A stretch of 64,000 nucleotides of DNA from Alteromonas sp. M12 (GTDB lineage Bacteria; Pseudomonadota; Gammaproteobacteria; Enterobacterales; Alteromonadaceae). The position numbers were made by a program, and so were the translations under genes. Shown here piece by piece: positions 5,771 through 62,309 of this stretch (positions are counted from its first letter, which is position 1; the number at the start of each line of letters is the position of its first letter). Under the pieces are notes generated by a model. The model did no database searches, was not told the DNA's origin, and saw nothing but the letters and a program-made list of their open reading frames with translations. The stretch is taken from contig NZ_CP144164.1 of assembly GCF_037478005.1 (NCBI RefSeq), positions 3,658,001 through 3,722,000 of the forward strand, written 5' to 3'.

Positions 5771-5774
5771 TCGA

Positions 5775-8646: not shown

Positions 8647-8668
8647 TCGTTAACACTGATCATTTTAT

Positions 8669-44819: not shown

Positions 44820-45276
44820 CTATTTCTTCCTTATAAACACACTCAAAAATCCCTTCAACTTCCCTAAAGATGCACATATTTACTTGGCCAATAATCACAA
44901 AAAGGAGTCTTCGGTCTGGATTACGCTTGATGCATTCACACCAATCAGAAATATCAACATTCGACGGTATAGGTGTGTGTTGTGGATGTGTGTGCCATGT
45001 TCCAACATATCCCAATGTACCTTTAGAGCTTTTGAAATAAGAATCAACAACACGTTGATGGTGTGACGCTCGCAAATTAAAACTTGTTCTAGTTGCAGAA
45101 TCCTGCTTCTGGGGTAACGTGCATGTGTCCAACCAGAATTCGGAGGCACATTCAGACTGAGAGCCAATTAACGCCCCAAATGCTTCATGCGAATCTTTGT
45201 CTAATTGACGGTTATCTCGCCAAATGTTGAGCAACTCCAAAGGTACATGAACCTTTGTTTTACCATTGGTCGCCAT
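44812..45276 (-). CDS. cap3: Cap3, JAB/MPN metallo-isopeptidase of type II CBASS
   Basis: A 154-residue JAMM protease. The complete zinc motif is visible: E31, then HTHPQHTPIPSNVD with H95, H97, S105 and D108 (HxHP-x6-S-x2-D). Cap3 removes the CD-NTase from proteins to which Cap2 has joined it. The start at 45276 gives a normal N-terminus ('MATNGKTKVHV') four bases after the cap2 stop; longer frames run back into cap2 to 45330 and are rejected. It overlaps the effector start by eight bases. Confidence 0.88.
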   Translation of the reverse strand: MATNGKTKVHVPLELLNIWRDNRQLDKDSHEAFGALIGSQSECASEFWLDTCTLPQKQDSATRTSFNLRASHHQRVVDSYFKSSKGTLGYVGTWHTHPQHTPIPSNVDISDWCECIKRNPDRRLLFVIIGQVNMCIFREVEGIFECVYKEEIDE

Positions 45277-45280
45277 TTCG

Positions 45281-47038
45281 CTATTGAGAACAAACATCGC
45301 AGTCCTCATCAGTAAGCGGCAAATATTCAAGCGAATGCTTAAAATTGTAGAAACGATGAGTTAACTTGATACCTTCATTTACCGCATCATCGTCATCACC
45401 TTTCCAGCTTGTTTTGCATGATTCCGTTTGCTTACCTTCCAAATATCTAATCGCTAGATTAGCCGTCATTACACCAGTCTGAGCTGAACTTGCAGCACCA
45501 TAAGAAATAAATTGTTCACCGCATCCAGCGATACTTTTCATAGTCACTTGGTTTGGTTCTATAAAGTTCATGTTTGAAACTAACCCCCGGGCACCAGATT
45601 CTGGGCAGACATAAGAACACAGCAGGCACCCTTTTGACTCAGAAACATCTAATACCGCATGGCCACCAATCCCAAATCCCTCCAACCAACTATTGATTAC
45701 CGCCACGTCTGTGTTGGTATCTAATAAATATTGCTTAAACAATCGCTCCTGCGTCGGATTACCAATAGCAATGACAAGCAAATCATAACTTTCCATATTT
45801 TGGTTCCGCGCAAATTTCATTAGATCATCTGGATACCATGTTGCGTTAGACCAAGGAAACTGCCTCTGAATAGCCACACTTAGGGCAAATGATTTAGGTG
45901 CACCGACCCAGCCTTGCTCTAAAACATGGCGATACAAATTATTGATTTCATATATGTCCGGATCTACCAGAGTTAAAGATTTGACACCAGCAGCTGACAA
46001 CTTGTGCGCAATTTCGCATCCGACAGAACCGACGCCTATTACTGCCACCTTTTTATCTGAAAGAGACAATCGTCCACCGCCTCGTTGTACCGTACTTTCT
46101 TGATTAAATAACCGGATGGGTAAGGCTGCCAGTGTCCAGTCTTTTAGCTTTTCACCCGTTAGAGGTAGCGCTTTCTTTGATTTGCAAACAAGCTTTAGGG
46201 CAAACCATGTACGATCATCATTGACTGTATTAGCTGTAAAAACTATCCAATAAGTAGTATCACGCCATTGGCCAAACTTTTGCTGTAATTCATTTCTGAT
46301 TGTTGTTGGTAATGCTGTGATGGTATCAATGTACCATTGCTCAAGAGAGTCAAATCGAGACGGTGCTGGAGTGAGCTTATGGATAGGAATGACTAATGCT
46401 ATACCTGCGGCTTCCCTATTTCCCTTCACCATAGACAAGTGAATATCGCTGATTCCAGAAAAGGAATTATCAGCAGGGTGCACCATATAATGACTTTCGA
46501 TGCCAAACTCTTTGTCGCTTAAAGGTGCGTATACTGCCAGCCTTTGCAATATGGGCTTTTCAATATTCGCCAGTAACGGTTTAGAATCATCCTGCCGACA
46601 TTTTCTTAGCCAGTCACTATAGAACTCACGAAGCAACTCCTTATTATTCCAATCGGGATTTGTTAAGCACATCTCTAACAGTGCCACATGCCGTTTAAGG
46701 GACTCTTCGACAACTAATTGTGGTTGCTCGAAATTTATTGATAGGGAATCAGGATCATTAACACAAACAGCGCCAAATATTGCACCAGAATACTGGTATA
46801 CAGTAACGTGAGCTAGCCTGCCAAAAGAGTCAGCGTCAATCAATACAAACTCTGGAAGGCTATGAAAAGGAGGCTCAGCCGCCAGCATCAACTGGATTTC
46901 GGACTCTGCAATAGTTACGTTGACAACGAGCCGAGGGAATCCACCTATGTCACTCACAATGCAGTCATACCCAATCCGCGTAAGATGCTGCTTGATTTTA
47001 CTTTGCAAACTACGCTCCTTGCGACGTTCCAACCACAC
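45281..47038 (-). CDS. cap2: Cap2, E2-E1 fusion conjugating enzyme of type II CBASS
   Basis: A protein of 576-585 residues. The N-terminal half is an E2-like region ('PPFHSLPEFVLIDADSFGR'). The C-terminal E1/ThiF adenylation domain has 'VAVIGVGSVGCEIAHKL', 'LVDPDIYEINNLYRHVL' and an E1 Cys-containing segment 'AGCGEQF'. Cap2 adenylates the C-terminus of its CD-NTase and links it to lysines on cell targets, priming it for activation. GTG 47038 is the longest start; TTG at 47008, with AAGGAG six bases upstream and one base after the CD-NTase stop, may be the true one. The end carries a CxxC ('DCDVC'). Confidence 0.85.
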   Translation of the reverse strand: MWLERRKERSLQSKIKQHLTRIGYDCIVSDIGGFPRLVVNVTIAESEIQLMLAAEPPFHSLPEFVLIDADSFGRLAHVTVYQYSGAIFGAVCVNDPDSLSINFEQPQLVVEESLKRHVALLEMCLTNPDWNNKELLREFYSDWLRKCRQDDSKPLLANIEKPILQRLAVYAPLSDKEFGIESHYMVHPADNSFSGISDIHLSMVKGNREAAGIALVIPIHKLTPAPSRFDSLEQWYIDTITALPTTIRNELQQKFGQWRDTTYWIVFTANTVNDDRTWFALKLVCKSKKALPLTGEKLKDWTLAALPIRLFNQESTVQRGGGRLSLSDKKVAVIGVGSVGCEIAHKLSAAGVKSLTLVDPDIYEINNLYRHVLEQGWVGAPKSFALSVAIQRQFPWSNATWYPDDLMKFARNQNMESYDLLVIAIGNPTQERLFKQYLLDTNTDVAVINSWLEGFGIGGHAVLDVSESKGCLLCSYVCPESGARGLVSNMNFIEPNQVTMKSIAGCGEQFISYGAASSAQTGVMTANLAIRYLEGKQTESCKTSWKGDDDDAVNEGIKLTHRFYNFKHSLEYLPLTDEDCDVCSQ

Positions 47039-48041
47039 CGGCGTTGCTATATGCTACTTTTCCAGCATTGTCACTTTGCTCTTTTTCGGGAACTTCGAAA
47101 TCATTACCAAATAGTCCTTGTAATATTTCACATTGCTTCTTCAGTGAATCTTCCTCTAAAGCTTGATCAAGCTTTGTGAGCAATAACTTAAATTTGTTAT
47201 AGAGCTGAGTGCCTGTATCAATACTGCTGTTTTCGAACACATTTATATATGGCTGCACAGGTAAATAAACGTTGACCTTATATTTATTGTCACCGGCCCA
47301 ATGAAAATAATTACTGGCCATAATTGCCCCGACGGTGTCGCGCAGTGATTGAAGATCATCGACCTTACCGTTGTTATCTATCGCAGGACGAAACTGCTCT
47401 TTCAGCATTAAGGTTAATCCGATTGAAAAAACCTTCTTGCCAATAGCCTGCCCGAACTTCTCATCACGCCATCGCTTAAAATATCTAACCAACCGCTTGA
47501 ATTGCTTTATTTTAAGGTCCGCTGAGCCAATAAACAGGCTACTATTGTTAATGTGCTCGATCAGCTTTTTAGGTTCTGAGGGTGACCATTCTCGATTTTG
47601 TTCATTCGAGTTTAACTTACCGACTGCCAACTCATACTGCTCACCACCTTTCCTGTACACAACAATGTCGATATGCAGACTTAGGTTAATGTAGTCGGCA
47701 GTGACACAAGGCTTTTTAACCCTTGCGTTTTTAAATCCACGCTTCTCAAGTACCTTCAATACAAGCTTTTTTAGCTCAACTGGGTTATCGGGAGCATTGT
47801 CGGCGTCAATCACTACGGCTCTGTCAATATCAAAGTCGTCTACTGGATGCTTTATTCCTGTATATGTACTCAGTGATCCCTGAATAAAAGTTTCGATTAT
47901 TGGATAGCCCGCACTTCTAAATTCGGCCTTAATCTCATCCAATATGCTATTGTCCTTGGCTCTGGCTTCTCGGTAAGCATCGTCCTCTCTACCTAGCTTT
48001 ATTTTGTCGTGAAATTTTGAAAACCTATTCTGTATCGACAT
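47010..48041 (-). CDS. CD-NTase (cGAS/DncV-like nucleotidyltransferase) of CBASS
   Basis: A 343-residue CD-NTase. The nucleotidyltransferase signature is G55-S56 followed by the metal-binding D71-I-D73 in 'VDDFDIDRAV', with the third carboxylate D125 in 'LHIDIVVY'. On phage infection it would make a cyclic di- or oligonucleotide. The C-terminus ends '...GTSQGA', a small flexible tail as required for conjugation by Cap2. It sits 16 bases after the YdjM-like gene and overlaps the longest cap2 frame by 29 bases. The product nucleotide cannot be read from sequence. Confidence 0.88.
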   Translation of the reverse strand: MSIQNRFSKFHDKIKLGREDDAYREARAKDNSILDEIKAEFRSAGYPIIETFIQGSLSTYTGIKHPVDDFDIDRAVVIDADNAPDNPVELKKLVLKVLEKRGFKNARVKKPCVTADYINLSLHIDIVVYRKGGEQYELAVGKLNSNEQNREWSPSEPKKLIEHINNSSLFIGSADLKIKQFKRLVRYFKRWRDEKFGQAIGKKVFSIGLTLMLKEQFRPAIDNNGKVDDLQSLRDTVGAIMASNYFHWAGDNKYKVNVYLPVQPYINVFENSSIDTGTQLYNKFKLLLTKLDQALEEDSLKKQCEILQGLFGNDFEVPEKEQSDNAGKVAYSNAGVVGTSQGA

Positions 48042-48057
48042 ATTAAACTACCTTTTG

Positions 48058-48438
48058 CTAAGAACTTTTAAGCTTACCTACTAAAGGCAAACTTCTGGGA
48101 GTAACGGCATCAAGCACTAAATGACTTAAATATCCTGCGCTGGCGCACAATAAAAGTAGCCGAACTACTTTCTCTAAATTGTCCTCAGGATCCCAGTCAT
48201 ACACTCTCTTTGTGCCGTATCCCACTAATCCTACAAAAGCTAGGCTATGGAAAAACTGTCTATGATGAGGATTTTTAAACGCGGGCTCTAAAATATCAGG
48301 TAACTTTCCAAAAAGTGTTCCAACAATGGGCGCGGTTAATAATAATTTGGGATCTTTATCTATTAACTCAGGATTAGCTAGCCCGACCGCGAGGCCTGTT
48401 AACCCACCCGCCAAGCTATGAGTTCTGCCGTTAGCCAT
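48058..48438 (-). CDS. YdjM-like (DUF457) putative membrane-bound metal-dependent hydrolase
   Basis: A 126-residue protein with the YdjM layout: an N-terminal 'RTHSLAGGLTGLAVGL' (conserved His and small-residue helix), 'FGKLPDILEP' (Asp), 'HHRQFFHSLAF' and 'GYLSHLVLDAVTPR' (H, D, T). These positions match the metal-binding residues of the family, and two or three hydrophobic helices suggest inner-membrane location. It starts one base after the stop of the small basic gene (AAGGAGAAG is its ribosome-binding site) and 16 bases before the CD-NTase. Its role in CBASS is unknown. Confidence 0.75.
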   Translation of the reverse strand: MANGRTHSLAGGLTGLAVGLANPELIDKDPKLLLTAPIVGTLFGKLPDILEPAFKNPHHRQFFHSLAFVGLVGYGTKRVYDWDPEDNLEKVVRLLLLCASAGYLSHLVLDAVTPRSLPLVGKLKSS

Positions 48439-48439
48439 A

Positions 48440-48613
48440 CTACTTCTCCTTCCTTACGCCTTTAAAAGGAGTCTTATCGGACGTTTTCACGTCTAAAAAC
48501 CTGCCCGTATCGGAGTCACGTTTAACATAGTGACCAGAAGGGGTTTTAGTTTGTGAGCGACCCCGCACGGCACCATGCCGACGGTTATCACCTGATTTTC
48601 CATTGGTAGCCAT
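48440..48613 (-). CDS. Small basic protein, first gene of the CBASS operon
   Basis: A 57-residue protein of which about a third is Lys or Arg: 'GDNRRHGAVRGRSQT', 'HYVKRDSDTGRFLDV', 'PFKGVRKEK'. It is too short for the usual length cut-off. GGAGG lies eight bases before the ATG at 48613. I recall similar small proteins (GDNRRxGAVxxRSQ... RDxxTGRFMDVK...FKGVRxE) near phage-defence genes. The sequence is real coding DNA: it has a ribosome-binding site, and the next gene starts one base later. A nucleic-acid-binding or regulatory role is guesswork. Confidence 0.75.
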   Translation of the reverse strand: MATNGKSGDNRRHGAVRGRSQTKTPSGHYVKRDSDTGRFLDVKTSDKTPFKGVRKEK

Positions 48614-48648
48614 GAGGGCCTCCTATTAGTTGTTTATAAAATTAAAAG

Positions 48649-48700
48649 ATCGCAATATGCGATACTTATGATATTTATACATCATCATATTGATGATGTA
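48649..48700. promoter_or_regulatory. Two palindromes in the CBASS/capW divergent promoter, candidate CapW operators
   Basis: ATCGCA-ATA-TGCGAT (48649-48663) is a perfect 6-bp inverted repeat. TACATCATCA-TAT-TGATGATGTA (48678-48700) is a perfect 10-bp inverted repeat with a 3-bp centre. Both lie between the first CBASS gene (start 48613) and the divergent WYL regulator (start 48756). Dimeric CapW/BrxR repressors bind such sites. Confidence 0.7.
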
Positions 48701-48755
48701 AAGTGATTATAAGTAGTTTATATTATTAACATAAAAGTAAAAAAATGGATGGCAC

Positions 48756-49643
48756 ATGAAAGATATCAATGAAGTTCCAAAAAATGTGCATGATAGACTG
48801 GAGTACATCGAGTTTATGTTGCGATTCAGAGGCTGGGTTTCTCGTTCTGATCTGACAGAAAGGTTTGAACTAGGAGAAGCCGCAGCAACAAGAGACATAC
48901 GTCTTTACCGAGAGCATGCAGAACAAAACCTTGCCCTAAATCAGAAAACAAAAAAATATGAAATATGTGAAAACAAATTTAAGCCGTTGTTTGCATTTTC
49001 TATTCAACGTGCCCTTTCGAAACTGCGTACCTCAAAAGTTGCAGAGTCGCTGGGCCTATCAGAATTTAATGGCGTACTTAATCCCCCACGACTGGCTTAC
49101 CCTGACGTAGATGTGCTATCTAGCGTTACTCGTGCAATCTCATCTTCAAGAGCACTTAAGGTAACTTATAAGGCATTAGTAAGTGGTAAGTCGAATAAGC
49201 TGCTGTATCCATTAGCTATATTTGACAATGGAATCCATTGGTACTTAAGAGCATTTGATCCTTCTAAAAAAGAATATAGATCATATGTATTAACAAGGTT
49301 TGTTTCTGTAGAAATCGATCACGACAATCCAGTTAAAGGTGAAATGAAGCTTTCAGATCATCAATGGAATAGAATGGTTGAATTAGAATTAGTTCCACAT
49401 CCAAATAAACGAAATGTTAGACAGCCGGATACCATATCACATGACTTTAACATGGAAGGTGGCAAGCTAAAATTAACTGTCAGAGCTGCCGTAGCCGGTT
49501 ACTGGCTAAGACATTGGAATGTGGACTGTACGGAAGATCACAGCCTTGAGGGTTTTCACTATCAATTGTGGCTATGTAATCACCAAACCTTGTACAACGT
49601 CGAAAGTCGCTCACTAGCACCCGGACTGTCTGAATACCAATAA
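48756..49643 (+). CDS. capW: CapW-like WYL-domain transcriptional repressor
   Basis: A 295-residue regulator. It has an N-terminal winged helix-turn-helix ('FRGWVSRSDLTERFELGEAAATRDIRLY', about 22-50), a WYL domain in the middle ('YPLAIFDNGIHWYLRAFDP' and 'YVLTRFVSVEI') and a C-terminal WCX-type domain. This is the architecture of CapW and BrxR, which repress defence operons until a ligand appears during infection. It is divergent from the CBASS operon, with palindromes in the 142-base gap. hsdM follows 107 bases later on the same strand. Confidence 0.85.
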   Translation: MKDINEVPKNVHDRLEYIEFMLRFRGWVSRSDLTERFELGEAAATRDIRLYREHAEQNLALNQKTKKYEICENKFKPLFAFSIQRALSKLRTSKVAESLGLSEFNGVLNPPRLAYPDVDVLSSVTRAISSSRALKVTYKALVSGKSNKLLYPLAIFDNGIHWYLRAFDPSKKEYRSYVLTRFVSVEIDHDNPVKGEMKLSDHQWNRMVELELVPHPNKRNVRQPDTISHDFNMEGGKLKLTVRAAVAGYWLRHWNVDCTEDHSLEGFHYQLWLCNHQTLYNVESRSLAPGLSEYQ

Positions 49644-49750
49644 CAAAAATAACAACAAACATTTTAGAACTGCCTGTTGGCCCTTTCTGCATAAATTGTA
49701 TGGGGCAATTCAACAGCATTGTTCTTACAAAAGGAACTTAAAGGAATACC

Positions 49751-52219
49751 ATGGCAATTAAAAAAACAGAACTCTATTCATCCCTTTGGGCTAGCTGTGA
49801 TGAGCTGCGTGGCGGGATGGATGCCAGCCAATATAAAGATTACGTGCTTACTATGTTGTTTATGAAGTACGTTTCAGACAAGTTCAAAGGTGACCCTTAC
49901 GGCATGATTGTAGTGCCAAAAGGTGCTAGTTATGACGATATGGTTGCCGCGAAAGGCGATAAAGAAATTGGCGATAAGATTAATAAAATTATCGCGGCCT
50001 TAGCCGAAGAAAATGATCTTAAAGGTGTGATTGACGTTGCCGACTTTAACGATGAAGACAAGTTAGGTAAAGGCAAAGAAATGATCGACCGCCTGACTAA
50101 ACTGGTGGGTATTTTTCAAGGTTTAGATTTAACTGCCAACCGCGCTGCGGGTGATGATTTATTAGGTGATGCATATGAATATCTTATGCGTCACTTTGCT
50201 ACCGAATCAGGTAAATCAAAGGGGCAGTTCTATACGCCATCTGAAGTATCACAAATTCTAGCCAAGGTTGTGGGGATAACAGAGGACACTCCACAGGACG
50301 CAACTGTGTATGACTGTGCGTGCGGGTCGGGTTCACTATTGCTAAAAGCCAGCGATGAAGCCCCGCGTGGTTTATCTATTTTTGGGCAGGAAATGGATAA
50401 CGCCACTAGTGCATTAGCCCGTATGAATATGATATTGCATAACAACGCCACCGCCAAAATCTGGAAAGGTAATACCTTGTCAGATCCGCAATGGAAAGAT
50501 GCGGCCAACCAATTAAAAACCTTTGATTTTGCAGTAGCTAACCCACCTTTTTCAAATAAAAATTGGACTAGTGGCTTAACCCCAGAAAACGATTTATACA
50601 ACCGCTTTACTTGGGGTATTCCACCAGAAAAAAACGGTGATTACACCTTCTTATTGCACATTATCAAAAGCTTAAAAAGCACAGGTAAAGGCGCGGTTAT
50701 CTTGCCTCATGGTGTGTTATTTCGTGGCAATGCTGAGGCCACCATTCGTGAAAATCTCATCAAGCAAGGTTACATTAAAGGCATTATTGGTTTACCTGCT
50801 AACTTGTTTTACGGCACAGGCATTCCTGCTTGTATTATTGTGATTGATAAAGAGCACGCACAACAGGCAGTGACTAACTTTAATGAAGGTGATGACAACC
50901 TGCCAACAGTTACAGGCCGCCCTATCTTTATGATTGATGCCAGTAAAGGCTTTATCAAAGATGGCAATAAGAACCGCTTACGTAGCCAAGACATTCATAA
51001 AATTGTGGATGTGTTTAACAAAGGTATAGTGTTAGATGGATTTAGCCGTTTAGTGCCGCTGGATGTCGTTGCTGCTAACGATTACAACCTCAATATTCCG
51101 CGCTATATCGACTCGTCAGAGCCAGAAGATTTGCACGATTTGAGCGCCCATTTGCAAGGTGGCATTCCAAACCGTGATATTGATGCTCTAGAGCACTACT
51201 GGCAGGTATTCCCAAGCATTCGCGCCACACTGTTTAAACCCGCCCGTGATGGCTACAGCCACGGCATGATTGAAGCAAGCAAGGTTAAAAGCAGCATTCT
51301 TGCCCATCAAGAATTTAAAGACTTTGCCAGCCGCAGCTTATTGCCATTTAAACAATGGATACCACAGGCTAAGTTGAAAGAAATCAAGGTAGGCGATAAT
51401 CCGAAAAGCTTCATTTTTAATATTTCTGAAAGCTTACTTAACGCCTATGCCAATAGCGACCTGCTCAGTAAATACGACATTTACCAAATCTTAATGGATT
51501 ATTGGGCAGATACCATGCAAGACGATGTTTATGTATTGGCGCAAGACGATTGGCAAGCAGGAAACATCTTACGTGAGTTAGTGGCGAAAAAGGGCGAAAA
51601 ACTCAAAGAAACGCCTGACTTAATCATTAATAAGAAAAAGTACAAAGCTGAGCTTATTCCACCAAGCCTGATAGTGGCGCGTTACTTTGCCGCTGAACAA
51701 ACACATGTGGATGCGCAGCAAGCCAAGCAAGACGAAGCCACTCTAGCTCTTGAAGCCTACTTAGAAGAACATGGTGCTGAAGACGGTTTATTGGCTGATG
51801 CAATGAACGATAAAGACAAGATCACCAAAGCCAGTGTCTTAGCACGAACTAAACTAGTAGCCAATTCTGAAGAATTGAAAGCTTTAATGCATGCCTCTAA
51901 GTTATTTAACGCAGATGCCGCAGCCAAAAAAGCCGTAAAAGAAGCGCAAGAAAAACTCGATTTAGCAGTGTTTAACCAATACCCCAAACTTTCTATCGAT
52001 GAAATCAAAACTCTGATTGTCGATGATAAATGGTTAGCTACACTGCAAGCGAGCATCATTGCAGAAATAGAACGTGTTACTCAACATATGGCAAATCGCG
52101 TAAAAGAACTGGAAGAGCGCTACAGCAAACCATTACCGACACTAACCAAATCGGTTGAAGACTTGAGCGACAAAGTGGCAGATCATCTAAAAGCAATGGG
52201 CTTGGAGTGGTCGCTATGA
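49751..52219 (+). CDS. hsdM: HsdM, type I restriction-modification methyltransferase subunit
   Basis: An 822-residue N6-adenine methyltransferase. The N-terminal helical HsdM domain (about 1-150) precedes the SAM site DCACGSG (188-194) and the catalytic N264-P-P-F267. The family mean is about 500-530 residues: an extra C-terminal region of about 300 residues (from 510) is Lys/Glu/Ala-rich with coiled-coil character ('QQAKQDEATLALEAYLEE'). AAAGGA precedes the start. The stop overlaps hsdS in ATGA. With HsdS it modifies adenines in a bipartite site, and with HsdR cuts unmodified DNA. Confidence 0.92.
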   Translation: MAIKKTELYSSLWASCDELRGGMDASQYKDYVLTMLFMKYVSDKFKGDPYGMIVVPKGASYDDMVAAKGDKEIGDKINKIIAALAEENDLKGVIDVADFNDEDKLGKGKEMIDRLTKLVGIFQGLDLTANRAAGDDLLGDAYEYLMRHFATESGKSKGQFYTPSEVSQILAKVVGITEDTPQDATVYDCACGSGSLLLKASDEAPRGLSIFGQEMDNATSALARMNMILHNNATAKIWKGNTLSDPQWKDAANQLKTFDFAVANPPFSNKNWTSGLTPENDLYNRFTWGIPPEKNGDYTFLLHIIKSLKSTGKGAVILPHGVLFRGNAEATIRENLIKQGYIKGIIGLPANLFYGTGIPACIIVIDKEHAQQAVTNFNEGDDNLPTVTGRPIFMIDASKGFIKDGNKNRLRSQDIHKIVDVFNKGIVLDGFSRLVPLDVVAANDYNLNIPRYIDSSEPEDLHDLSAHLQGGIPNRDIDALEHYWQVFPSIRATLFKPARDGYSHGMIEASKVKSSILAHQEFKDFASRSLLPFKQWIPQAKLKEIKVGDNPKSFIFNISESLLNAYANSDLLSKYDIYQILMDYWADTMQDDVYVLAQDDWQAGNILRELVAKKGEKLKETPDLIINKKKYKAELIPPSLIVARYFAAEQTHVDAQQAKQDEATLALEAYLEEHGAEDGLLADAMNDKDKITKASVLARTKLVANSEELKALMHASKLFNADAAAKKAVKEAQEKLDLAVFNQYPKLSIDEIKTLIVDDKWLATLQASIIAEIERVTQHMANRVKELEERYSKPLPTLTKSVEDLSDKVADHLKAMGLEWSL

Positions 52220-53469
52220 GTGTGATTGAACGAGAAGTTCCGAAAGGATATCAACAAACGGATGTTGGAGTTATTCCTGTTGAGTGGGAAAGTGTCAATT
52301 TTGGCGATCTATTCCAGCAGTCAATTACAAGAAAACAACTAAAACCAAATGATTGCATAACTTTTATTGGAATGCAGGATGTTAGTGAGTCAGCTCAGTT
52401 AACTAGTCCTAAGAATAGAATATACGAACAAGTAAAGACAGGATTTACATATTTCGAAAAAAATGACGTTTTAGTAGCTAAAATTACGCCATGTTTTGAA
52501 AATGGAAAAGGATGTTATACGCATGAAATAAATACTGAAGTAGGTTTCGGTAGTACAGAGTTTCATGTACTGAGAGCGAAAGAAAAGTCGGACTCTAAGT
52601 TTATATATTTTTGGACTACTAGAAATAGTTTAAGGCAAGACTTAGAAGGAGAAATGGTTGGAAGCGCTGGACACAGACGAGTGCCCTTAGCTGCTTTACA
52701 AAATTATCGTATACCTTGCCCAAGTAATAGTGAAGAACAAACCGCCATTGCCAATGCTTTATCCGATGTCGATGCTCTATTAACTGAATTAGAAAATCTA
52801 ATTGCCAAAAAACAAGCGATTAAAACCGCCACTATGCAGCAACTGCTAACAGGCAAAACCCGTTTACCGCAATTCGCTACCCACACCGAAGGTGAAAAGC
52901 AAGACCAACCCAAAGGCACCAAACCCAGTGAACTAGGCGAAATCCCTGAGGATTGGGATGTAAAAGCTTTTGGACAAGTTATGTGTATTAGACATGGCAA
53001 AGATCAAAAAGCTGTACAAGTAGTTGATGGACTTTATCCGATCTTTGGTACTGGTGGAAAAATGGGAACTACCAATACTCCCCTATATGATAAGCCTTCG
53101 GTACTTATTGGACGAAAAGGTACAATAAACAAACCAAGATATGCTGATAATCCATTCTGGACTGTAGACACTTTATTTTATTCGGAAATCGCACCTAATG
53201 CTGAACCCAAATTTATATTTTACAAGTTCTGTATGATTGATTGGATGCAATACAATGAGGCTTCTGGTGTTCCTAGTCTAAACGCTTCAACCATCGAGAG
53301 CGTTACAGCTTCTTTTCCTAGTAAAGAAGAGCAAACCGCTATAGCCACCATTCTCTCGGATATGGATAACGAAATCCAAACCCTTGAACAGCGCCTAAAG
53401 AAAACCCGCCAAATCAAACAAGGCATGATGCAAGAACTACTCACAGGCCGCACAAGGTTACCATTTTGA
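52216..53469 (+). CDS. hsdS: HsdS, type I restriction-modification specificity subunit
   Basis: A 417-residue HsdS with two target-recognition domains (about 1-175 and 225-375). They are separated by a conserved central helix ending 'ATMQQLLTGKTRLP' and closed by a conserved tail 'GMMQELLTGRTRLPF'. Both recognition domains carry the 'SNSEEQTAIANALSDVD' or 'SKEEQTAIATILSDMD' repeat. Start at 52216 from the ATGA overlap with hsdM; the GTG three codons earlier is rejected. The DNA of its tail (53411-53466) recurs at the end of the DUF429-like gene 2.1 kb downstream. Confidence 0.92.
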   Translation: MSVIEREVPKGYQQTDVGVIPVEWESVNFGDLFQQSITRKQLKPNDCITFIGMQDVSESAQLTSPKNRIYEQVKTGFTYFEKNDVLVAKITPCFENGKGCYTHEINTEVGFGSTEFHVLRAKEKSDSKFIYFWTTRNSLRQDLEGEMVGSAGHRRVPLAALQNYRIPCPSNSEEQTAIANALSDVDALLTELENLIAKKQAIKTATMQQLLTGKTRLPQFATHTEGEKQDQPKGTKPSELGEIPEDWDVKAFGQVMCIRHGKDQKAVQVVDGLYPIFGTGGKMGTTNTPLYDKPSVLIGRKGTINKPRYADNPFWTVDTLFYSEIAPNAEPKFIFYKFCMIDWMQYNEASGVPSLNASTIESVTASFPSKEEQTAIATILSDMDNEIQTLEQRLKKTRQIKQGMMQELLTGRTRLPF

Positions 53470-54716
53470 TTTGCGTGAATTGTGTTTACCTCCGCTCTTT
53501 AAAAGAGTTTGTTACTAGTAATGGTCTAAGTGCAAGTTGTGACTATTGTGATAACCAAGATATCTGTGTAGACGATGAAAAGTTTGAACAGTTTTTGCTA
53601 GGTAAGGCGAAAGAAATATTGGTCACTACGGACGAGTTATCAAAGTATGACCAAGCGATGATATTCGAATGCGGTAGCCCTGACCCTCATGTATTTAAAC
53701 TATTTGACTTCTTTGAATCCCACCTCGATTTAGTAAATGAGTCATTTGTAGAGCAATTTATCGAAAAAGTACCGGATGAAACCAATCAGAATGGCTATTC
53801 AATTTTATATGTTTTAAATGATGGCAACCTTGATGAATTAAATGATTTCGAAGAGCGTTGGTATAATTTTACTCATTCAATACGACATAGTAAGCGGTTT
53901 TTTAATAAGTTGGCCTTCACGTTTTGTAAGGACTTATTTGAAACAATTGTCGAGGACGGTCAGTTACTAAAGCATTTAGTTGTTGATTTACCAGCCACAC
54001 AACCTCTTTACCGTGCAAGAGTGGGTTACTCTATTGCTGATATTGAAGCCATTGATAAAGATCCTATAAACCAGTTAGGAGCGGTGCCTGCAAAATTTGC
54101 TAGTTCACAGCGAATGACTCCAGCAGGTGTATCCGCATTCTATGCAGCATTTGACCGAAATACATGTATTAGTGAATTAAGACCAATTGTAGGCGATGGT
54201 GTGGTTTCCGGAGAATTTCGCCCGAATAGAGCTTTAAAACTCTTGGATTTGAACATTTTGAAAGATGTTCAAATTAATGACGATATATTTTCAGATAGAT
54301 GGCTGGTTTTATCTCATGCTTACGCTTTTTTCCCAGAGTTGGTCTTCAAACTTACACGACCGTCTAGTCGTAATAATCAACATGATTATTTAGCGACTCA
54401 AGTCATCTTTGAGTTTCTCAGTACCGAATTTGGTTCTCAAATTGACGGAATTATATACCCTTCAATACAAAAAAACGGTGACAGCAAATGTGTGGTTTTA
54501 TTCCCAGAACATTCGCTAGCAAACAACGGTTTAGTAAATATCAACAATGTCGATGATCCTTTCGAAGAAAATAACCCAGCATTATTTTTTGTTCCTGAGT
54601 CAATCAAGTTTCATAAAGTGAAGAGTGCAAGCTTTGAAGCAACAGAAGAAGACAACTCAGTAATGCTAACATCCAGTGATTCGATGCTAAGAACGTTTTT
54701 CCCAAGTGAGAGATAA
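53466..54716 (+). CDS. RES-domain protein with zinc-ribbon-like and HEPN-type N-terminus
   Basis: A 416-residue protein. The N-terminus has CxxC ('CVNC') and CDYC (residues about 26-29), a putative zinc ribbon. Residues about 60-180 are helical, as in the HEPN/RES N-terminal domain. The RES domain begins at 'PLYRARVGYS' and continues 'KFASSQRMTPAGVSAFYAAF' and 'CISELRPI'. RES proteins degrade NAD+ by an ADP-ribosyltransferase-like fold. No Xre-type antitoxin accompanies it. TTG at 53466 overlaps the hsdS stop; GTG at 53475 would lose the first Cys. It lies in the hsd operon. Confidence 0.8.
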   Translation: MICVNCVYLRSLKEFVTSNGLSASCDYCDNQDICVDDEKFEQFLLGKAKEILVTTDELSKYDQAMIFECGSPDPHVFKLFDFFESHLDLVNESFVEQFIEKVPDETNQNGYSILYVLNDGNLDELNDFEERWYNFTHSIRHSKRFFNKLAFTFCKDLFETIVEDGQLLKHLVVDLPATQPLYRARVGYSIADIEAIDKDPINQLGAVPAKFASSQRMTPAGVSAFYAAFDRNTCISELRPIVGDGVVSGEFRPNRALKLLDLNILKDVQINDDIFSDRWLVLSHAYAFFPELVFKLTRPSSRNNQHDYLATQVIFEFLSTEFGSQIDGIIYPSIQKNGDSKCVVLFPEHSLANNGLVNINNVDDPFEENNPALFFVPESIKFHKVKSASFEATEEDNSVMLTSSDSMLRTFFPSER

Positions 54717-54749
54717 TAAACATGGTATTACTAATATTGGTGCAAGCCT

Positions 54750-55601
54750 GTGACTGAATTTGATGGTGTGCTTAAAGGGCATTATTTTATCGGCTGGGAT
54801 GTTGGTGGTTGGAATTGTTCAAAGAATAGTAACAGTCGCGACGCCCTTGTGATCTTAGACAGCCAAGGTCAGATAGTAGGTTTGCCTTGGCGCGGCAATT
54901 TATCATCCATTATCCATGAATCACCGGATCAACCGTCCTTTATTCAGGCCATGTTTACACTGTGCAAGACTGAATATTTACATGGTAGGGTAACTCTAGC
55001 GATTGATACGCCGCTTGGGTTCAGCGACGGTTTTCGGACATTGCTGGAAGGAAAATATTTAGATGGTGAAACACCCAATGCTTTAAACCCTTATCTTTTT
55101 CGAAAAACCGAGCAGTTTTTAGCAGGCTGGGGTTATACACCGCTTTCTTCCATCAAAGATATGATTGGTAGTCAAGCCACTAAAGGGATGCATGTTGTGG
55201 CCAAGTTTGCTGCGAATATTTTACGAACAGGCGTATGGCAAAATGAAAACCTAACCATTATCGAAGCTTATCCTTCACCTTGTGCATATTCTGAACTTAT
55301 TTTTAGTATGCAAAAACAAGCATCGTTAAGCTGGATTATAGATGAACTTGGTAATGAACAATTGTTAGATACGAGGTTGCCAACACAGGATCATATAGAT
55401 GCGTTAACTTGTGCATTGATTGCTAAGCTATTCGTAATTAGGCCACAGTGCCTAACTGCCCCAGATAACAATGCGTCTCAAAAAGAAGGTTGGATTTTTG
55501 TTCCCAAAGATTGTTTACAAGACGAAGACAAAATCAAACAAGGCATGAAGCAAGAGTTACTGACAGCTCGCACACGGTTGCCCTTTGACAAAAAACAATA
55601 A
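54750..55601 (+). CDS. DUF429-like (RNase H-fold) protein with an HsdS-derived C-terminal tail
   Basis: A 283-residue protein. The body (1-250) shows 'GWDVGGWNCSKNSNSRDALVI', 'LAIDTPLGFSDG', 'IIEAYPSP' and 'DHIDALTCALIAKLF'. The Asp/Glu spacing resembles DUF429, a predicted RNase H-like nuclease, but I would not call it firmly. The last about 25 residues, 'IKQGMKQELLTARTRLPF', are a copy of the HsdS tail, and the DNA of 55531-55586 matches 53411-53466 at about four bases in five. Start is a GTG with weak ribosome-binding site. Nine bases separate it from the next gene. Confidence 0.75.
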   Translation: MTEFDGVLKGHYFIGWDVGGWNCSKNSNSRDALVILDSQGQIVGLPWRGNLSSIIHESPDQPSFIQAMFTLCKTEYLHGRVTLAIDTPLGFSDGFRTLLEGKYLDGETPNALNPYLFRKTEQFLAGWGYTPLSSIKDMIGSQATKGMHVVAKFAANILRTGVWQNENLTIIEAYPSPCAYSELIFSMQKQASLSWIIDELGNEQLLDTRLPTQDHIDALTCALIAKLFVIRPQCLTAPDNNASQKEGWIFVPKDCLQDEDKIKQGMKQELLTARTRLPFDKKQ

Positions 55602-55610
55602 GGAACATGG

Positions 55611-57476
55611 ATGTCTGAATGTAACGAATTAGAATTAAAACCCATTAACGACCTACTTGAACTGTCGTTTTTTATACCTGCCTACCAGCGCGGATATCGT
55701 TGGTCTAAAAGGCAAGTTACTGAACTGCTTGATGACATTAAAGAGTTTCAGCAACAAGCTGAAAATAGCAATAAAAATGCTTTTTATTGCTTACAGCCTA
55801 TTGTGGTTAAACAACATAATGGCGATTGGGAATTGGTTGACGGTCAACAGCGGCTGACCACCATATATATAATTCTAACGTACTTAAAAGGCATCCTGAC
55901 CTTACTTGGTAAATCTAATTATCAATTAAGTTATGAAACACGAGAAGAAAGTGCTGGATTCCTTGAAGATATTAATGAGGAACGCGGTGAGGAAAATATT
56001 GACTTCTTCCATATCGCACAAGCTAAAAAAGCAGTAGAAGAATGGTTTAAGGCACAAGATGGTACATATCAAATAAAGTTTATCCAAACGTTATTAAACG
56101 ATGATGAAACGGGGAAAAACGTAAAAGTTATCTGGTATCAAATTGATGAAACTGAAAATGTCACTGAGGTATTTACTCGGCTAAATATGGGCAAGATCCC
56201 TCTGGTCAATGCGGAGCTGGTCAAAGCGCTATTTTTAAAATCGAATAACTTTGCTCAAGACGTAGAAGACTCCATAAGCAAAAAGCCGATTCAAGATCTT
56301 CAACAATTAAAGATTTCTCAAGAGTGGGATGCAATTGAAAAACGCTTACAAGATGATGCGTTTTGGTATTTTATTAGCAACAAGTCCATTACCACTAATC
56401 GAATCGAATTTGTTTTAGATTTGGCATCCAGAGATTTAGATAGTGATGGCATTTTAGACTCGGACAAATTGAAAATATTTTTAACATTTAACCGATTATT
56501 AAGTACCAAAGGCGATAAAGATAAACCTGTTGATGTAACCCGTGAATGGCTAAAGATAAAACAGTGCTTTATGACTCTAGAAGAGTGGTATAACGACCGG
56601 GCACTATTTCATTTGATTGGTTACTTAGTTTCGCAAAATATTTCTATTGCTCAAATCTTTAACGTACACCAAGAAGCACTCACAAAGTACGATTTTCGAC
56701 AGACATTGCTGAAGCTAGTCTTCAGAGAAACCTTTAAAGGTAGAGAGGTTGAGTCATTATCCCAAGAATGGCTGGAAGATAAACTAAACACGTTCACCTA
56801 TGAATCAGGTGCACATAAGCTAAGATCCGTATTATTACTATTCAACGTTGCTAGCCTGCTTGCAAACCCAGCAAGCAATGCGCGTTTTCAATTTGATAAA
56901 TATAAAGACCCATCAAATGCTTGGGATATAGAACATATCCGCTCTGTTGCGTCAGATATGCCAAACAGTAAAGACAAACAAAAAGCATGGCTTGAAAATG
57001 TTGTTGAATATATTTCTAGCGATGAACACGTTGAAACATACGAATCTGATACTGAAACGGTTAGTGATGAGCAAAATATCAGGTTTGAAGCCCAAGCTTT
57101 GCTAAAAACTGCCACTTTCAACAATGACCTGTTTGAAACCTTGTATGACAAGGTAAGAGAACACTATGACCCTGACGGCAACGAAGACGTTGATAATTCC
57201 ATCGGTAACTTAACATTGCTGGATAGTTCAACTAACCGCAGTTACCAGAATGCTGTGTTCCCGATTAAACGAGCAAGAATCATTTCCTTAGATAAAAAGG
57301 CAACCTTTGTCCCCCTATGCACCAAAAATGCATTTCTTAAGTACTACAGCAAACAGGTAGATAAGATGCTGTACTGGGAAGCGAAAGACAGCGAAGATCA
57401 TCAACAAGCTATGGTAGAAATGCTACTAGGTTTCTTTCAGGGTGTGGGTGTTCATCAAAAAGGAGTTAGGTCATGA
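55611..57476 (+). CDS. DUF262/DUF1524 protein (GmrSD-like), first of a pair
   Basis: A 621-residue protein. The N-terminal DUF262 ParB-like domain has 'FIPAYQRGYRWSKRQV' and the nucleotide-binding D77-G-Q-Q-R81. The C-terminal DUF1524 HNH nuclease domain shows 'WDIEHIRSVASDMP' (catalytic His) and 'SIGNLTLLDSSTNRSYQN'. This is the composition of GmrSD and related type IV restriction enzymes that use NTP and cut modified DNA. AAGGAA precedes the start. It overlaps the next gene in ATGA, so the two are translated together. Modification specificity is unknown. Confidence 0.85.
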   Translation: MSECNELELKPINDLLELSFFIPAYQRGYRWSKRQVTELLDDIKEFQQQAENSNKNAFYCLQPIVVKQHNGDWELVDGQQRLTTIYIILTYLKGILTLLGKSNYQLSYETREESAGFLEDINEERGEENIDFFHIAQAKKAVEEWFKAQDGTYQIKFIQTLLNDDETGKNVKVIWYQIDETENVTEVFTRLNMGKIPLVNAELVKALFLKSNNFAQDVEDSISKKPIQDLQQLKISQEWDAIEKRLQDDAFWYFISNKSITTNRIEFVLDLASRDLDSDGILDSDKLKIFLTFNRLLSTKGDKDKPVDVTREWLKIKQCFMTLEEWYNDRALFHLIGYLVSQNISIAQIFNVHQEALTKYDFRQTLLKLVFRETFKGREVESLSQEWLEDKLNTFTYESGAHKLRSVLLLFNVASLLANPASNARFQFDKYKDPSNAWDIEHIRSVASDMPNSKDKQKAWLENVVEYISSDEHVETYESDTETVSDEQNIRFEAQALLKTATFNNDLFETLYDKVREHYDPDGNEDVDNSIGNLTLLDSSTNRSYQNAVFPIKRARIISLDKKATFVPLCTKNAFLKYYSKQVDKMLYWEAKDSEDHQQAMVEMLLGFFQGVGVHQKGVRS

Positions 57477-59944
57477 ATAAGGGAAAAAGTTTAACATTTT
57501 TCGGTTTATTTGACGTTGTTGAAGCGATTGAAATTCCAATATTGCAACGTGATTACGCACAGGGCCGAAAAGAAGAGCTTGAAGTTAGAACACTGTTTTT
57601 AAAATCACTCTTTCAAGCGCTAAACAACAAAGATGAGTCACGCCAGCCTCTAGATTTAGATTTTGTTTACGGCAATTTTGAAGAGGGCCAAAGTAAGGCT
57701 TTTTCTGTTCTGGACGGGCAGCAACGTTTAACCACACTATTTTTACTGCATTGGCACTTAGCGATGCATCATGAACATATTGAAGATTTTAGAAGTCGAT
57801 TTGTAACTGATGACCAACGATCTCGCTTCACATATAAAACACGCCCAAGCACAACAGAGTTTTTCGATGCATTGACCTCTAAAGATATCGAACTATCAGG
57901 TGCAGAGATGAGTAAACAGATTAAAAATAGTCAGTGGTTTTACTTGTCTTGGCAACAAGATCCAACAGTGCAAGCTTGTTTAAATATGCTAGATGCGATT
58001 CAAGCATTGTTTTGTCAAAACGATATCGACTTGTACGAGCGAATCATCAATAACTGTGAACCTTACATTACGTTTCAGTTTTTAGATCTTCACTCGTTTG
58101 GTTTATCTGATGAGCTTTATATAAAAATGAATGCTCGTGGTAAACCGCTTACTATTTTTGAGAATTTCAAGGCGAAGTTAGAGCAAAAAATTAAGTCTTT
58201 TGAAGAGCCTTGGCCCGCATACTCTCTACCATTTAACAAAAACGCTAGCGGTTATGATTACTTTATACATAAAGTAGATACTGACTGGGCAGACCTATTT
58301 TGGCCTTATAGAAATGTCTGCTCTAATGACAATACCTTTGATGATGAACTAATGAATTTCATTCGCTTAGTCATTGCCTATCAATACCTAATTGACCATC
58401 GAGATTCACCAATCGATCTTCATGTGAATAGCGGAGAACTCTTTGGGCGTAACGGACGATTAGAGGCGCTTACGCTTTCTAAATATGAAGAACTAGACTG
58501 CTTAAATAAAGAGTTTATTGTTCGCCTTATTAGCTTCCTTGACCTCATATCTAGAGATGGTTTAATCGATAACCAAATACATAGCTACTTAGAGAATGAC
58601 TATCATTATTCTGAGTATAAAACTTTTAAAAATGTATTAAAAAATGACGCTAGTTATGATGATAAATTAAGATTCTATGCATTTTATAACTATGTTTCCA
58701 AATCACCTTCTGACACGGAATTAAATGAATGGTTGAGAGTTGTATTTAATCTAACCGAAAACACCATTACCAATACCTCAGATGAATTTTACAAAGCATT
58801 CTTTGCTATTGATAAGTTGTGTCAATCAGATAAACCTATCCTAGAAAGCCTAGCTGCTGATGTTGAAATATCTGGTTTTGCTGGCGCTCAGATTATTGAA
58901 GAAAAGATAAAAGCTCACTTGCTCTTAAAATCTAACGAATGGCGTGAAGCAATTGTCAGTGCAGAAAAACACTCATTCTTGAAAGGCCAGATTGGCTGTC
59001 TTTTAAATTTTTCAGAAATATTAACTTACTACCGAGAACAAAAGCACTGTGATTGGGGAGTAGATAAAGATAGTAAGTATTTAGAAAAATTCACACGATA
59101 TTCCAATGCAATTCAACGCGTATTAAACCAAATTGAAAACAACTCGGCATCAATTGATTACCTTTGGGAAAGAGCGGTGCTAAGTAAAGGCGAATATTTC
59201 ACTGATAAACGAGGCGATAAGTACAATATGCTCTCCTCTCGCGATACTAGAAACAACATCCCTCGTGATCATAGTTGGAAGAGGTTATTGCGGTTCGGAA
59301 CAGCTTCAATTGAACAAAAGCAAAGTTACGTAAAAGCAGTATTAGATGACCCACTATTTAATTCTAATGAAGTACAAACATCACTATCTGCTATTTGCTC
59401 CAACGCTATAGAGTCAGAGGAAATTGAGCCTTGGAGGAAAGCTTTAATTAAGCATGAAGAACTAATGCGGTACTGCCAGCAAGGCTTTATAGAGAAAAAT
59501 AATTCTGAATTTGTGTTACTTGGACAGTCACAGCGGAACCATCCTCATGTTGAGCTTTACACGAAAACTCTAGAACTTGAATTATCGCTGGACGAAACCC
59601 TATTAACACCGTTTTCAAGTTTATGGTATGTACCAGTTAAATCGCGTGAAGAAAGTGCGCATTTGAAACTAAGCGGTTTTGTTCATCATGGAGAGCGATA
59701 TTATATTGAGATCCATAAAACAGCTGGCTGCTTTGATATTAGAGTTATAGGTGGTGAGATAGAGAATGCACCTGATACATTAGTAAGTGTATTAGAAAGT
59801 GAAGGTTTTGAACTGAGTGGCTTAGCATTACCAAGCCTTGGTATTTACAAATACTTCAGTGATAAAAATCAGAAAAGTATCAACGATGCCAAATCAAAGA
59901 TTCAGAAACTATGCGCAAGTTTAAAGGATTTAAGCGATGAGTAA
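57473..59944 (+). CDS. Large DUF262 protein, second of the pair
   Basis: An 823-residue protein. The N-terminus has the DUF262 motifs 'IPILQRDYAQGR' and D81-G-Q-Q-R85. The central and C-terminal regions (from about 250) have no domain I recognise, with long helices and no HNH triad evident. It is therefore probably the NTP-sensing or DNA-binding partner of the preceding HNH-bearing protein. The ATGA overlap (57473-57476) links the two. This two-gene arrangement recurs in defence islands, but its exact name is unknown to me. Confidence 0.8.
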   Translation: MNKGKSLTFFGLFDVVEAIEIPILQRDYAQGRKEELEVRTLFLKSLFQALNNKDESRQPLDLDFVYGNFEEGQSKAFSVLDGQQRLTTLFLLHWHLAMHHEHIEDFRSRFVTDDQRSRFTYKTRPSTTEFFDALTSKDIELSGAEMSKQIKNSQWFYLSWQQDPTVQACLNMLDAIQALFCQNDIDLYERIINNCEPYITFQFLDLHSFGLSDELYIKMNARGKPLTIFENFKAKLEQKIKSFEEPWPAYSLPFNKNASGYDYFIHKVDTDWADLFWPYRNVCSNDNTFDDELMNFIRLVIAYQYLIDHRDSPIDLHVNSGELFGRNGRLEALTLSKYEELDCLNKEFIVRLISFLDLISRDGLIDNQIHSYLENDYHYSEYKTFKNVLKNDASYDDKLRFYAFYNYVSKSPSDTELNEWLRVVFNLTENTITNTSDEFYKAFFAIDKLCQSDKPILESLAADVEISGFAGAQIIEEKIKAHLLLKSNEWREAIVSAEKHSFLKGQIGCLLNFSEILTYYREQKHCDWGVDKDSKYLEKFTRYSNAIQRVLNQIENNSASIDYLWERAVLSKGEYFTDKRGDKYNMLSSRDTRNNIPRDHSWKRLLRFGTASIEQKQSYVKAVLDDPLFNSNEVQTSLSAICSNAIESEEIEPWRKALIKHEELMRYCQQGFIEKNNSEFVLLGQSQRNHPHVELYTKTLELELSLDETLLTPFSSLWYVPVKSREESAHLKLSGFVHHGERYYIEIHKTAGCFDIRVIGGEIENAPDTLVSVLESEGFELSGLALPSLGIYKYFSDKNQKSINDAKSKIQKLCASLKDLSDE

Positions 59945-59984
59945 TGTTGTTCAGTTTAAAGTAAAACAATAAAAGGAATGAACA

Positions 59985-60560
59985 ATGATTAGAGATGGAA
60001 GATTAATTTATCACTTATCTGCTTTAGAAAATCTAGAATCGATTCTTCAGCATGGATTGCAACCAAGGTGTGAGCTAAGCAATGATGGATTTGAAGATGT
60101 TGCTGATGGTGAAATATTAGATTCTAGGGCTAACCACAGCTTAGATCTTTATGTACCGTTCCACTTTTTCGCCAAAAACCCCTTTGATTATGGCGTACAG
60201 AGATCGTACCCGAATAAAGATTTCGTCTTAATTGCTATCCGGAGAAGTACAGCAAGAGCAAATGGCTGGCAAATTGTACCTACACACCCTTTAGCTGAAC
60301 AGGGTTATCAAATTTTAGACTATGATGCCGGCTTTTTAGCGATTGATTGGGAATTGATGGAAGAAAGAGATTATGATGATAGAGCGTGCAAAGTAGCCTG
60401 TATGGCGGAGTGTTTATCGCCTACAAGTGTAAACCCCAACTTGATTTTCTGTATTTATGTTAAAAATGCACGAGTGAAAGCAGTTGTAGATAGGCTGCTG
60501 AATTCACATAATGTTGAATGTCATGTAGATATTAATCCTGCAATGTTTGTTGGTGAGTAA
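59985..60560 (+). CDS. DarT-like ADP-ribosyltransferase (shorter, first copy)
   Basis: A 191-residue protein of the DarT/DUF4433 family. It opens with 'IYHLSALENLESILQHGLQP', the NAD-binding start of DarT, and has 'LYVPFHFFAKNPFDYGVQ', corresponding to 'VPFYFxPxSPM' in DarT. A candidate catalytic Glu is E142 in 'MAECLSP'. DarT enzymes transfer ADP-ribose to thymidine or guanine in single-stranded DNA. It differs in the target-binding region from the second copy, so may modify another substrate. AAAAGGA precedes the start. Its end overlaps the next gene by eight bases. Confidence 0.75.
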   Translation: MIRDGRLIYHLSALENLESILQHGLQPRCELSNDGFEDVADGEILDSRANHSLDLYVPFHFFAKNPFDYGVQRSYPNKDFVLIAIRRSTARANGWQIVPTHPLAEQGYQILDYDAGFLAIDWELMEERDYDDRACKVACMAECLSPTSVNPNLIFCIYVKNARVKAVVDRLLNSHNVECHVDINPAMFVGE

Positions 60561-61209
60561 ATTGTATAACTATAGTCAAACTCTTAACCCACAAAAAGCG
60601 CTAATTTGGCGCATAGTGCATCGCAACAATATACCGTGGATCTTAGATAACGGTTTGTATTGTGGTAATAGTCAGGTGCAGTCACCTAATTGGGAAGCAA
60701 TCGGTAGTTCGGAGTTAATACAAAAACGAGCAACTCATCCAGTCCCGATTTCTCCTTTTGGTTCATTAAATGACTATGTGCCTTTTTACTTTACCCCTTT
60801 CTCACCTATGTTGCTCAACATAAAGTCAGGACGAGGTGTTATTCAGAGAGCTAACGAAGACATTGTTATTTTGGTATCATCATTACATAAAGTTGAGCAA
60901 CTAAACTTGGAATTTGTCTATACAGACATGCATGCATACTATCAATGGGCTAATTTCTATTCTGACTTAAGCTACTTAGGGAAGGTAGATTGGCCTATTT
61001 TACAAGCAAGGAATTTTGCTAGAGATCTGAATGATCCTGCGAAGTTCGAGCGATACCAAGCTGAGGCATTAATCAAACAGCATTGTCCAATAAATGCTTT
61101 ATTAGGCATAGCTTGTTACGACGTTCAAGTTGAACAACAATTAAAACAACATATTCAACAACGCAATATGAATTTGGACGTTATTGTACGTCCGGGATGG
61201 TATTTCTAA
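60553..61209 (+). CDS. darT: DarT, ssDNA ADP-ribosyltransferase toxin
   Basis: A 218-residue DarT. Motifs: '[19 protein letters not shown]' at the start, '[22 protein letters not shown]' in the middle and a catalytic-type Glu, E171, in '[13 protein letters not shown]'. The family ADP-ribosylates bases on single-stranded DNA, which stops replication, including that of phages. The start GTG 60553 overlaps the upstream DarT-like gene by eight bases; TTG 60547 is an alternative. Its stop overlaps the antitoxin start in TAATG, as expected for a toxin-antitoxin pair. Confidence 0.88.
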
Positions 61210-62273: not shown

Positions 62274-62309
62274 TTAAGTTAGTTCAATAAAAAAATATAA
62301 AGGAACTAT

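Follow-up and report, generated by a model that had tools for sequence, protein, structure and literature searches.

Head-and-tail scars between hsdS and hsdR suggest block-by-block stacking of defence cargo in some type I restriction-modification operons

The 64,000-nt stretch of Alteromonas sp. M12 DNA analysed here (contig NZ_CP144164.1, positions 3,658,001 to 3,722,000; hereafter the window) carries a type I restriction-modification (RM) operon, hsdM-hsdS-hsdR, with 8.8 kb of co-directional genes in the interval between hsdS and hsdR. In order, these genes encode a RES protein, a DUF429-like protein, GmrA, GmrB, two DarT-like proteins (DarT-a and DarT-b) and DarG; going by family names alone, they are predicted defence genes. 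We argue that in some type I loci the hsdS-hsdR interval is very probably a cargo slot, stacked block by block via illegitimate joins that leave scars. The stack in the window would comprise three blocks, RES-DUF429, GmrA-GmrB and DarT-DarT-DarG, each of which (or its relatives) would formerly have been the only cargo between the stop of an hsdS and the start of an hsdR. Four features documented at the level of sequence support this proposal: the anatomy of the operon, an intermediate in a sister locus, relatives in which the second or third block stands alone, and the recurrence of scars elsewhere. As for the slot itself, the non-hsd genes run in the same direction between a complete hsdS and an hsdR that is cut by the window edge and complete in relatives, and the cargo blocks vary among orthologous loci (L003, L146, L147, L148, L149 and L152).

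The first scar is a repeat. As the initial annotation had recognised, the last 56 coding bases of hsdS (53411-53466) recur at the end of the DUF429-like gene (55531-55586), on the same strand and 2120 bases away, with 47 of 56 bases identical in an ungapped alignment; elsewhere in the window this 56-mer reaches at best 33/56 without gaps. Among 400 random 56-mers from the window the mean best match is 30 and six reach 46, so the window has other repeats too. The hsdS tail nonetheless aligns better than chance, the 66-nt tail scoring 67 against its own hsdS-hsdR slot compared with a shuffle maximum of 31. The second copy is indeed read in frame (IKQGMKQELLTARTRLPF, then DKKQ and a stop), so that the DUF429-like protein (54750-55601, 283 amino acids) terminates in an HsdS C-terminus. 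PADLOC assigns residues 11-259 to PDC-S44 over essentially the full profile (7.3e-94, positions 6-254 of 257) and residues 260-281 to HsdS (Specificity_I, positions 421-442 of 443, E 3.4e-5), the first match stopping where the HsdS tail starts. Beyond the repeat, the second copy (55531-55601 including the stop codon) takes in what appears to be the stop of a donor hsdS together with the leader that precedes the following gene; this sequence (TAAGGAACATGGATG) is the same as at the junction of hsdS and GmrA in locus L146.

How the stump came to lie there is best seen in Aliiglaciecola lipolytica E3 (L002), where gene order is the same as in the window. Here, in the state INTERMEDIATE, the DUF429 gene has its own end (..DADKRTKFLLS), followed by 34 nt of hsdR 5' head and, directly after it, by an hsdS 3' stub in another frame from DUF429. 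The head (L002 8825-8858) agrees with hsdR, counted from its second codon, in 30 of 34 bases (score 48, compared with at most 32 in 2000 shuffles), and the best match of the 50-base piece L002 8801-8850 falls at the exact hsdR start in the window, in L003 and, outside the scar, in L002 itself. An hsdR head followed by an hsdS tail is the joint expected where two hsdS-hsdR cargo blocks are joined. Because the DUF429 end of L002 (..RTKFLLS) resembles that of L003 (Aestuariibacter halophilus; hsdS-nuclease-DUF429-hsdR, ending ..DHFLISEELQG), and L002 also keeps the hsdR head, the state in the window appears to be the derived one. Judging from the alignment with L002, the window has lost about 70 bp between two copies of ACAAAA, which took out the DUF429 end together with the hsdR head and thereby created the fusion; the deletion joint, with its 6-bp microhomology, lies at 55528-55533.

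Of the accounts initially offered for the repeat, the one that invoked the stump of a second hsdS therefore stands, and recombination between hsd loci is the best explanation. The idea that the stump entered with DUF429 does not: since the L002 gene has its own C-terminus, then the hsdR head, then the out-of-frame stump, the stump forms the left-hand border of the GmrA-GmrB block that follows, and the fusion came from a later deletion. Compared in bins of 250 bp, window and L002 range from 68% identity (in hsdS; 73% elsewhere) to 100%, with 99-100% across the Dar block and hsdR, a mosaic as expected of piecemeal exchange.

Might the tail nevertheless serve the protein that carries it? It had been suggested that it could recruit the DUF429-like nuclease to an HsdM-containing complex as a functional docking module. 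The tail is open, in frame and recognisable as HsdS, AlphaFold places a helix at residues 259-275, and the 18 codons compared between the window tail and the L002 stub differ by seven silent and three amino-acid changes. However, confidence in that helix is low (blocks of 76, 64 and 52), the parts of HsdS outside these residues are missing, and the residues M6 and G12, invariant in 50 of 50 HsdS tails (picked by profile score), are K and A in the window. The tail was born of a deletion in the window's own lineage and has no counterpart on any DUF429 gene in 80 homologous loci. These are the best 80 of 103 confirmed loci from the DUF429 search, on which all figures for 80 loci rest; 74 genes were read to their stop, the other six contain a stop within the aligned range, and a profile scan also covered each of the 80 loci in all six frames. 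We reject docking as very improbable and suggest that the HsdS tail is best read as a footprint, or debris, and not as an evolved docking domain. Its sole plausible use is at the RNA level, where it ends DUF429 translation at the old hsdS stop; GmrA starts 9 nt after this stop, just as it follows hsdS in L146, and translation of DUF429 may thus be coupled into GmrA.

Direct repeats flanking 2 kb of accessory genes could also be taken for the attachment-site-like ends of an integrating RES/DUF429 element. Yet only the RES and DUF429-like genes lie between the repeats, with no recombinase family among them, the right-hand copy extends into an hsdS stop and GmrA leader that form a native junction elsewhere, and in L002 the hsdR head sits between DUF429 and the repeat. 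In addition, the 18 other slots tested from the DUF429 search contain DUF429 without a second hsdS tail. We find an integrating element scarcely credible and have discarded it. Nor is a conserved RES/DUF429 cassette supported: a RES relative (tblastn, E up to 1e-5) adjoins DUF429 only in the window and in A. lipolytica among the 80 loci.

If stacking is correct, the blocks should have relatives that stand alone. L146 reads hsdS-GmrA-GmrB-hsdR and L149 reads hsdS-DarT-DarT-DarG-hsdR, both predicted single-block loci, while L148 has the Dar block as in L149 followed by a gene with a GmrA-like stretch. GmrA of the window (55611-57476; GmrSD_N and GmrSD_C domains) is 86% identical to the L146 ortholog, which lies right after hsdS, and GmrB (57473-59944; GmrSD_N) is 82% identical. 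Both native joints of L146 are kept in the window, that is, an hsdS stop leading through TAAGGAACATGGATG into GmrA, and a GmrB stop overlapped by an hsdR start. At the latter, window positions 59937-59968, across the GmrB stop, align with the L146 junction (score 39), and we read this second, weaker scar as an hsdR-head remnant because of its position at the GmrB-hsdR joint of L146. The 16 bases that follow (59969-59984) resemble, by alignment and by eye, the leader between hsdS stop and DarT in L148 and L149.

Scars recur in other loci. L144 has an AlbA/HATPase block, a scar and a GmrSD pair, the scar consisting of 26 codons of hsdR head in frame with a decayed hsdS tail. This tail matches the L003 hsdS tail at 50 of 64 aligned bases, equalled in none of 500 shuffles. 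L147 (82%) and L156 (72%) each have the first L144 block by itself, as L152 (75 and 69%) and L160 (58 and 57%) have the second. In-frame hsdR-head::hsdS-tail mini open reading frames (mini-ORFs) lie between cargo genes in L047 (Prosthecobacter; the head recognised only by profile, at 17.7 bits, the tail at DNA level) and in L057 (a Verrucomicrobia metagenome-assembled genome; both halves by profile), and L163 has an hsdR head and hsdS tail remnant right after hsdS. Two additional hsdS stubs are present in L164, one ahead of a zeta-toxin-like gene and one ahead of a Kiwa pair, and an hsdS stub precedes an AlbA-type gene in L174. The L165 slot has a Kiwa pair and, after it, a fusion of an hsdR head with the C-terminal portion of an AlbA/HATPase-type protein; this portion is 67% identical over 36 residues to that of L057 and 48% over 33 to that of L050, and matches only Fic-like_C in Pfam.

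Traces of ruined RM genes occur in further loci. In L050, DUF429 lies between an hsdM head adjoining an hsdS tail and, further along, a weak hsdR-head remnant (15 bits); L070 has, just past DUF429, a stretch (MSTVGQI) that matches an hsdR head weakly (8.7 bits); and L054 and L056 have a decayed hsdS stub ahead of DUF429 and no match to the hsd genes of the window. Cargo may outlive the RM system in some loci.

Stubs of this kind could alternatively be the ends of a silent or phase-variable second hsdS kept beside the active gene, and duplicated hsdS genes are, as general background, on record for many type I loci. However, what survives are the last codons only (24 residues in the window and no more than about 40 in L164) with no target-recognition part, and an hsdR head ahead of the stub, as in L002, L144, L047, L057 and L163, is not something that a silent hsdS predicts. 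We accord this explanation very little weight and reject it along with the other two, which leaves joining between cargo blocks as our preferred reading.

To put recurrence in numbers, a uniform in-slot test was applied to 51 slots (the window, 20 loci from the DUF429 search, 12 from the family and 18 from the class). Loci whose stretch did not include a full hsdS as well as the start of hsdR were left out, among them L049, L050, L057, L154, L158 and L173, and the L057 scar is thus not part of the slot counts. The family slots derive from 16 of 395 family genomes with a close HsdM (E up to 1e-250): the slot was read in 13 regions, one of them incomplete, and the remaining genomes are the window and, apparently, L002 and L003. 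The class sample covers 20 of 23 places, not counting that of the window. Six of the 51 slots contain an additional hsdS tail (scores of 54-97 against shuffle maxima of 24-34), four an additional hsdR head (scores 40-88), and eight at least one of these ends, or 6 of 49 without the window and L002. Six control pieces matched in 1/51, 1/51, 0/51, 1/51, 0/47 and 0/44 slots, with marginal scores of 28-33; note that the control match in L164 may be genuine, the stub there extending further into hsdS. By sample, scarred slots number 1/1 for the window, 2/20 for the DUF429 loci, 1/12 for the family and 4/18 for the class.

The query used above, the last 66 nt before the hsdS stop, skips the conserved tail wherever hsdS extends further (20 loci, including L144). 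A second query, the 66 nt ending at the conserved tail, was applied to 56 slots (the 51 plus five from the fresh sample described below) and matches in seven, L144 included (42 versus 28); slots with an additional tail, head or both still number eight, now 8/56, or 6/54 without the window and L002. Note that the L176 slot (145 bp) is oddly defined, with its hsdS stop 624 nt beyond the conserved tail. A DNA pattern for the hsdS tail, too strict as it turned out, matched six of 394 genomes of the order. Positions 53411-55601 found no DNA match in the E. coli genomes searched and, against plasmid records, a single protein match (27%).

How might such joints arise? We suggest that the hsdR start behind one block would be joined to the hsdS end ahead of the next by illegitimate recombination, either through the collapse of two tandem hsd loci (between hsdR of the first and hsdS of the second) or through unequal exchange between two loci. 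The redundant hsdR-hsdM-hsdS would be lost in the join, both cargos would remain in one operon, and every joint would initially read hsdR head, hsdS tail. At the first joint of the window, a later microhomology deletion of about 70 bp would then have put DUF429 in frame with the hsdS stump. We infer both the tandem or unequal-exchange step and the order of events. The joins look illegitimate; breakpoints vary between loci, and hsdR heads and hsdS tails share homology in only 3 of 51 loci (5 or fewer of 100 shuffles).

Several observations weigh against stacking or limit its reach. First, shared homology of head and tail does not explain the joints, so that stacking has to rely on presumed illegitimate recombination. 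Second, the second scar of the window is short and non-significant in its own slot (6 of 200 shuffles; 29 versus a shuffle maximum of 28 in the other test), and rests on synteny with L146. Third, a locus with RES-DUF429 only was not found, L003 having a different first gene, and neither was a donor genome of the exact composite. The L002 gene on which the polarity of the deletion depends is itself broken, with an in-frame premature stop at codon 190 of DUF429 (8001-8807) and, at a position that is invariably D in the aligned family, an H, so that its native end lies beyond the premature stop. L151 has both L144 blocks and no visible scar, and in several scarred loci one half alone passes the DNA test (the tail in L047, L164 and L174; the head in L165). 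Finally, a fresh phylum sample (8 of 9 new places) yielded scars in none of five usable slots, where 10-25% had been predicted beforehand; the sample is small (L177, L179, L180, L181 and L184, with L180 and L181 near-duplicates; L178 is incomplete, and L182 and L183 are without cargo).

A broader possibility, which we regard as rather doubtful, is that type I RM operons act as integrase-free accretion arrays for immunity in which in-frame joints are preferentially kept for ribosome run-on between blocks. Incoming hsd loci with other cargo would collapse onto the resident locus by hsdR-head/hsdS-tail joints, and the joints kept would be in-frame hsdR::hsdS mini-ORFs or in-frame fusions of cargo to hsdS as in the window. 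Head/tail joints are in frame in L144, L047, L057 and L163 and out of frame in L002. Four of five in-frame joints correspond to about p 0.045 (by hand, on a one-in-three expectation), although the sample is small and protein profiles pick up in-frame joints somewhat more readily.

Turning to the individual genes, all of which lie on the plus strand, hsdM occupies 49751-52219 (N6_Mtase, HsdM_N; PADLOC MTase_I) and the complete hsdS 52207-53469 (Methylase_S; PADLOC Specificity_I). The RES gene (53466-54716; RES 2.8e-14) begins with a TTG that overlaps the hsdS stop, and its product has a HEPN_RES-type N-terminus (HEPN_RES_NTD1 1.3e-4, under the curated cut-off). For the stretch between RES and DUF429 (54717-54749) we make no claim of a decayed hsdR head, a possibility assessed by eye only. 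DUF429 lies between hsdS and hsdR in at least 20 of the 80 loci. Its product is likely an RNase H-like nuclease, to judge by family and model: D17, D86, E172, D214 and D217 are invariant across 42 aligned DUF429-like sequences, and the AlphaFold model is good (pLDDT 89.9, pTM 0.88) apart from the last 24 residues. Top Foldseek matches in the PDB are mostly terminase nucleases, but also transposases, Argonautes and EndoV, none below E 0.001 and with TM-scores of about 0.2-0.3; Pfam DUF429 (PF04250) itself matches below its cut-off (E 0.012, 15.8 bits versus 23).

The third block consists of DarT-a (59985-60560; DarT 6.8e-24), DarT-b (60547-61209; DarT 6.3e-55; NCBIfam toxin_DarT above cut-off) and the macrodomain antitoxin DarG (61197-62273; Macro 5.2e-22; PADLOC DarG), after which hsdR (62310-63998; HSDR_N, SWI2_SNF2), the right wall of the slot, leaves the window. 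DarT-a reaches 67 bits against an NCBIfam DarT cut-off of 150. Two overlapping DarT-like genes (59985-61209) precede a single DarG; as L148 and L149 retain both of them, DarT-a could be a distinct partner.

Outside the slot, a WYL-domain gene (48756-49643) lies just upstream of hsdM, and a cyclic oligonucleotide-based anti-phage signalling system (CBASS) operon on the minus strand (43257-48041; SAVED-HNH effector, JAB peptidase, E1-E2, CD-NTase) diverges from the hsd operon. Window positions 48000-64000 have no DNA match in G526, a genome labelled as the same species; the hsd operon may therefore be accessory, though an empty result is weak proof. Among the other loci, L131 (G042) has a GmrA-GmrB pair 70 and 59% identical to that of the window, placed after a different R-subunit-like gene and ahead of genes resembling dndBCD (names from reading the sequence). 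The Kiwa pair lies inside the hsdS-hsdR slot both in L164 (reverse complement, 5660-7070; KwaA and KwaB by PADLOC) and in L165 (4445-5855; by 82 and 74% identity to L164). Inspection by eye shows the L163 scar (reverse complement, 4230-4560) to be broken up by a short sequence present in repeated copies, for instance TTCCCACGGAGGACC; this may be a mobile repeat inserted into the joint.

That defence genes cluster in type I loci, including in the hsdS-hsdR slot, is already known. TgvAB, a pair resembling GmrSD that lies within a type I RM operon, is the same kind of cargo as in the window; it forms a single block, however, and a word search of the main text finds neither 'scar' nor 'remnant' (PMC11411939). 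DarTG2 lies between hsdS and hsdR in the RptR-RMS-DarTG island, the same slot as here, at a site called a 'potential recombination hotspot'; that island has one DarTG block plus an M48 gene, whereas DarT-DarT-DarG in the window sits behind two blocks with scars (PMC12255303). RloF and other R-linked ORFs of Campylobacter likewise place DUF262 genes within the hsdS-hsdR interval, and the portion consulted of the paper that cites them gives no account of several blocks sharing it (PMC4619093). PrrC, embedded in the type I locus EcoprrI, is another accessory effector and answers inhibition of the RM enzyme, whereas no result here points to such a response of DUF429 or RES (PMC12707154). The DUF429-like core matches nearly the whole profile of the PADLOC candidate PDC-S44, to which the window protein adds the HsdS tail. 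In Staphylococcus, defence islands have been shown to move by lateral transduction (PMC12829572). A search of open-licence papers found neither hsdR-head/hsdS-tail joints nor stacked blocks with such joints described, and, as far as our searches show, the literature searched holds no description of the way in which multiple unrelated modules end up together in a single hsdS-hsdR interval.

For annotation, the scars carry a warning: what looks like a domain, a short piece of HsdS or HsdR on a defence gene, can be debris left at a junction. They could also flag loci that have lost their RM genes, perhaps L050 and L070. Scars would provide a readable record of block borders and of the direction of joining, permitting sequenced hsd loci to be searched for stacking events and for newly added, uncharacterised cargo.

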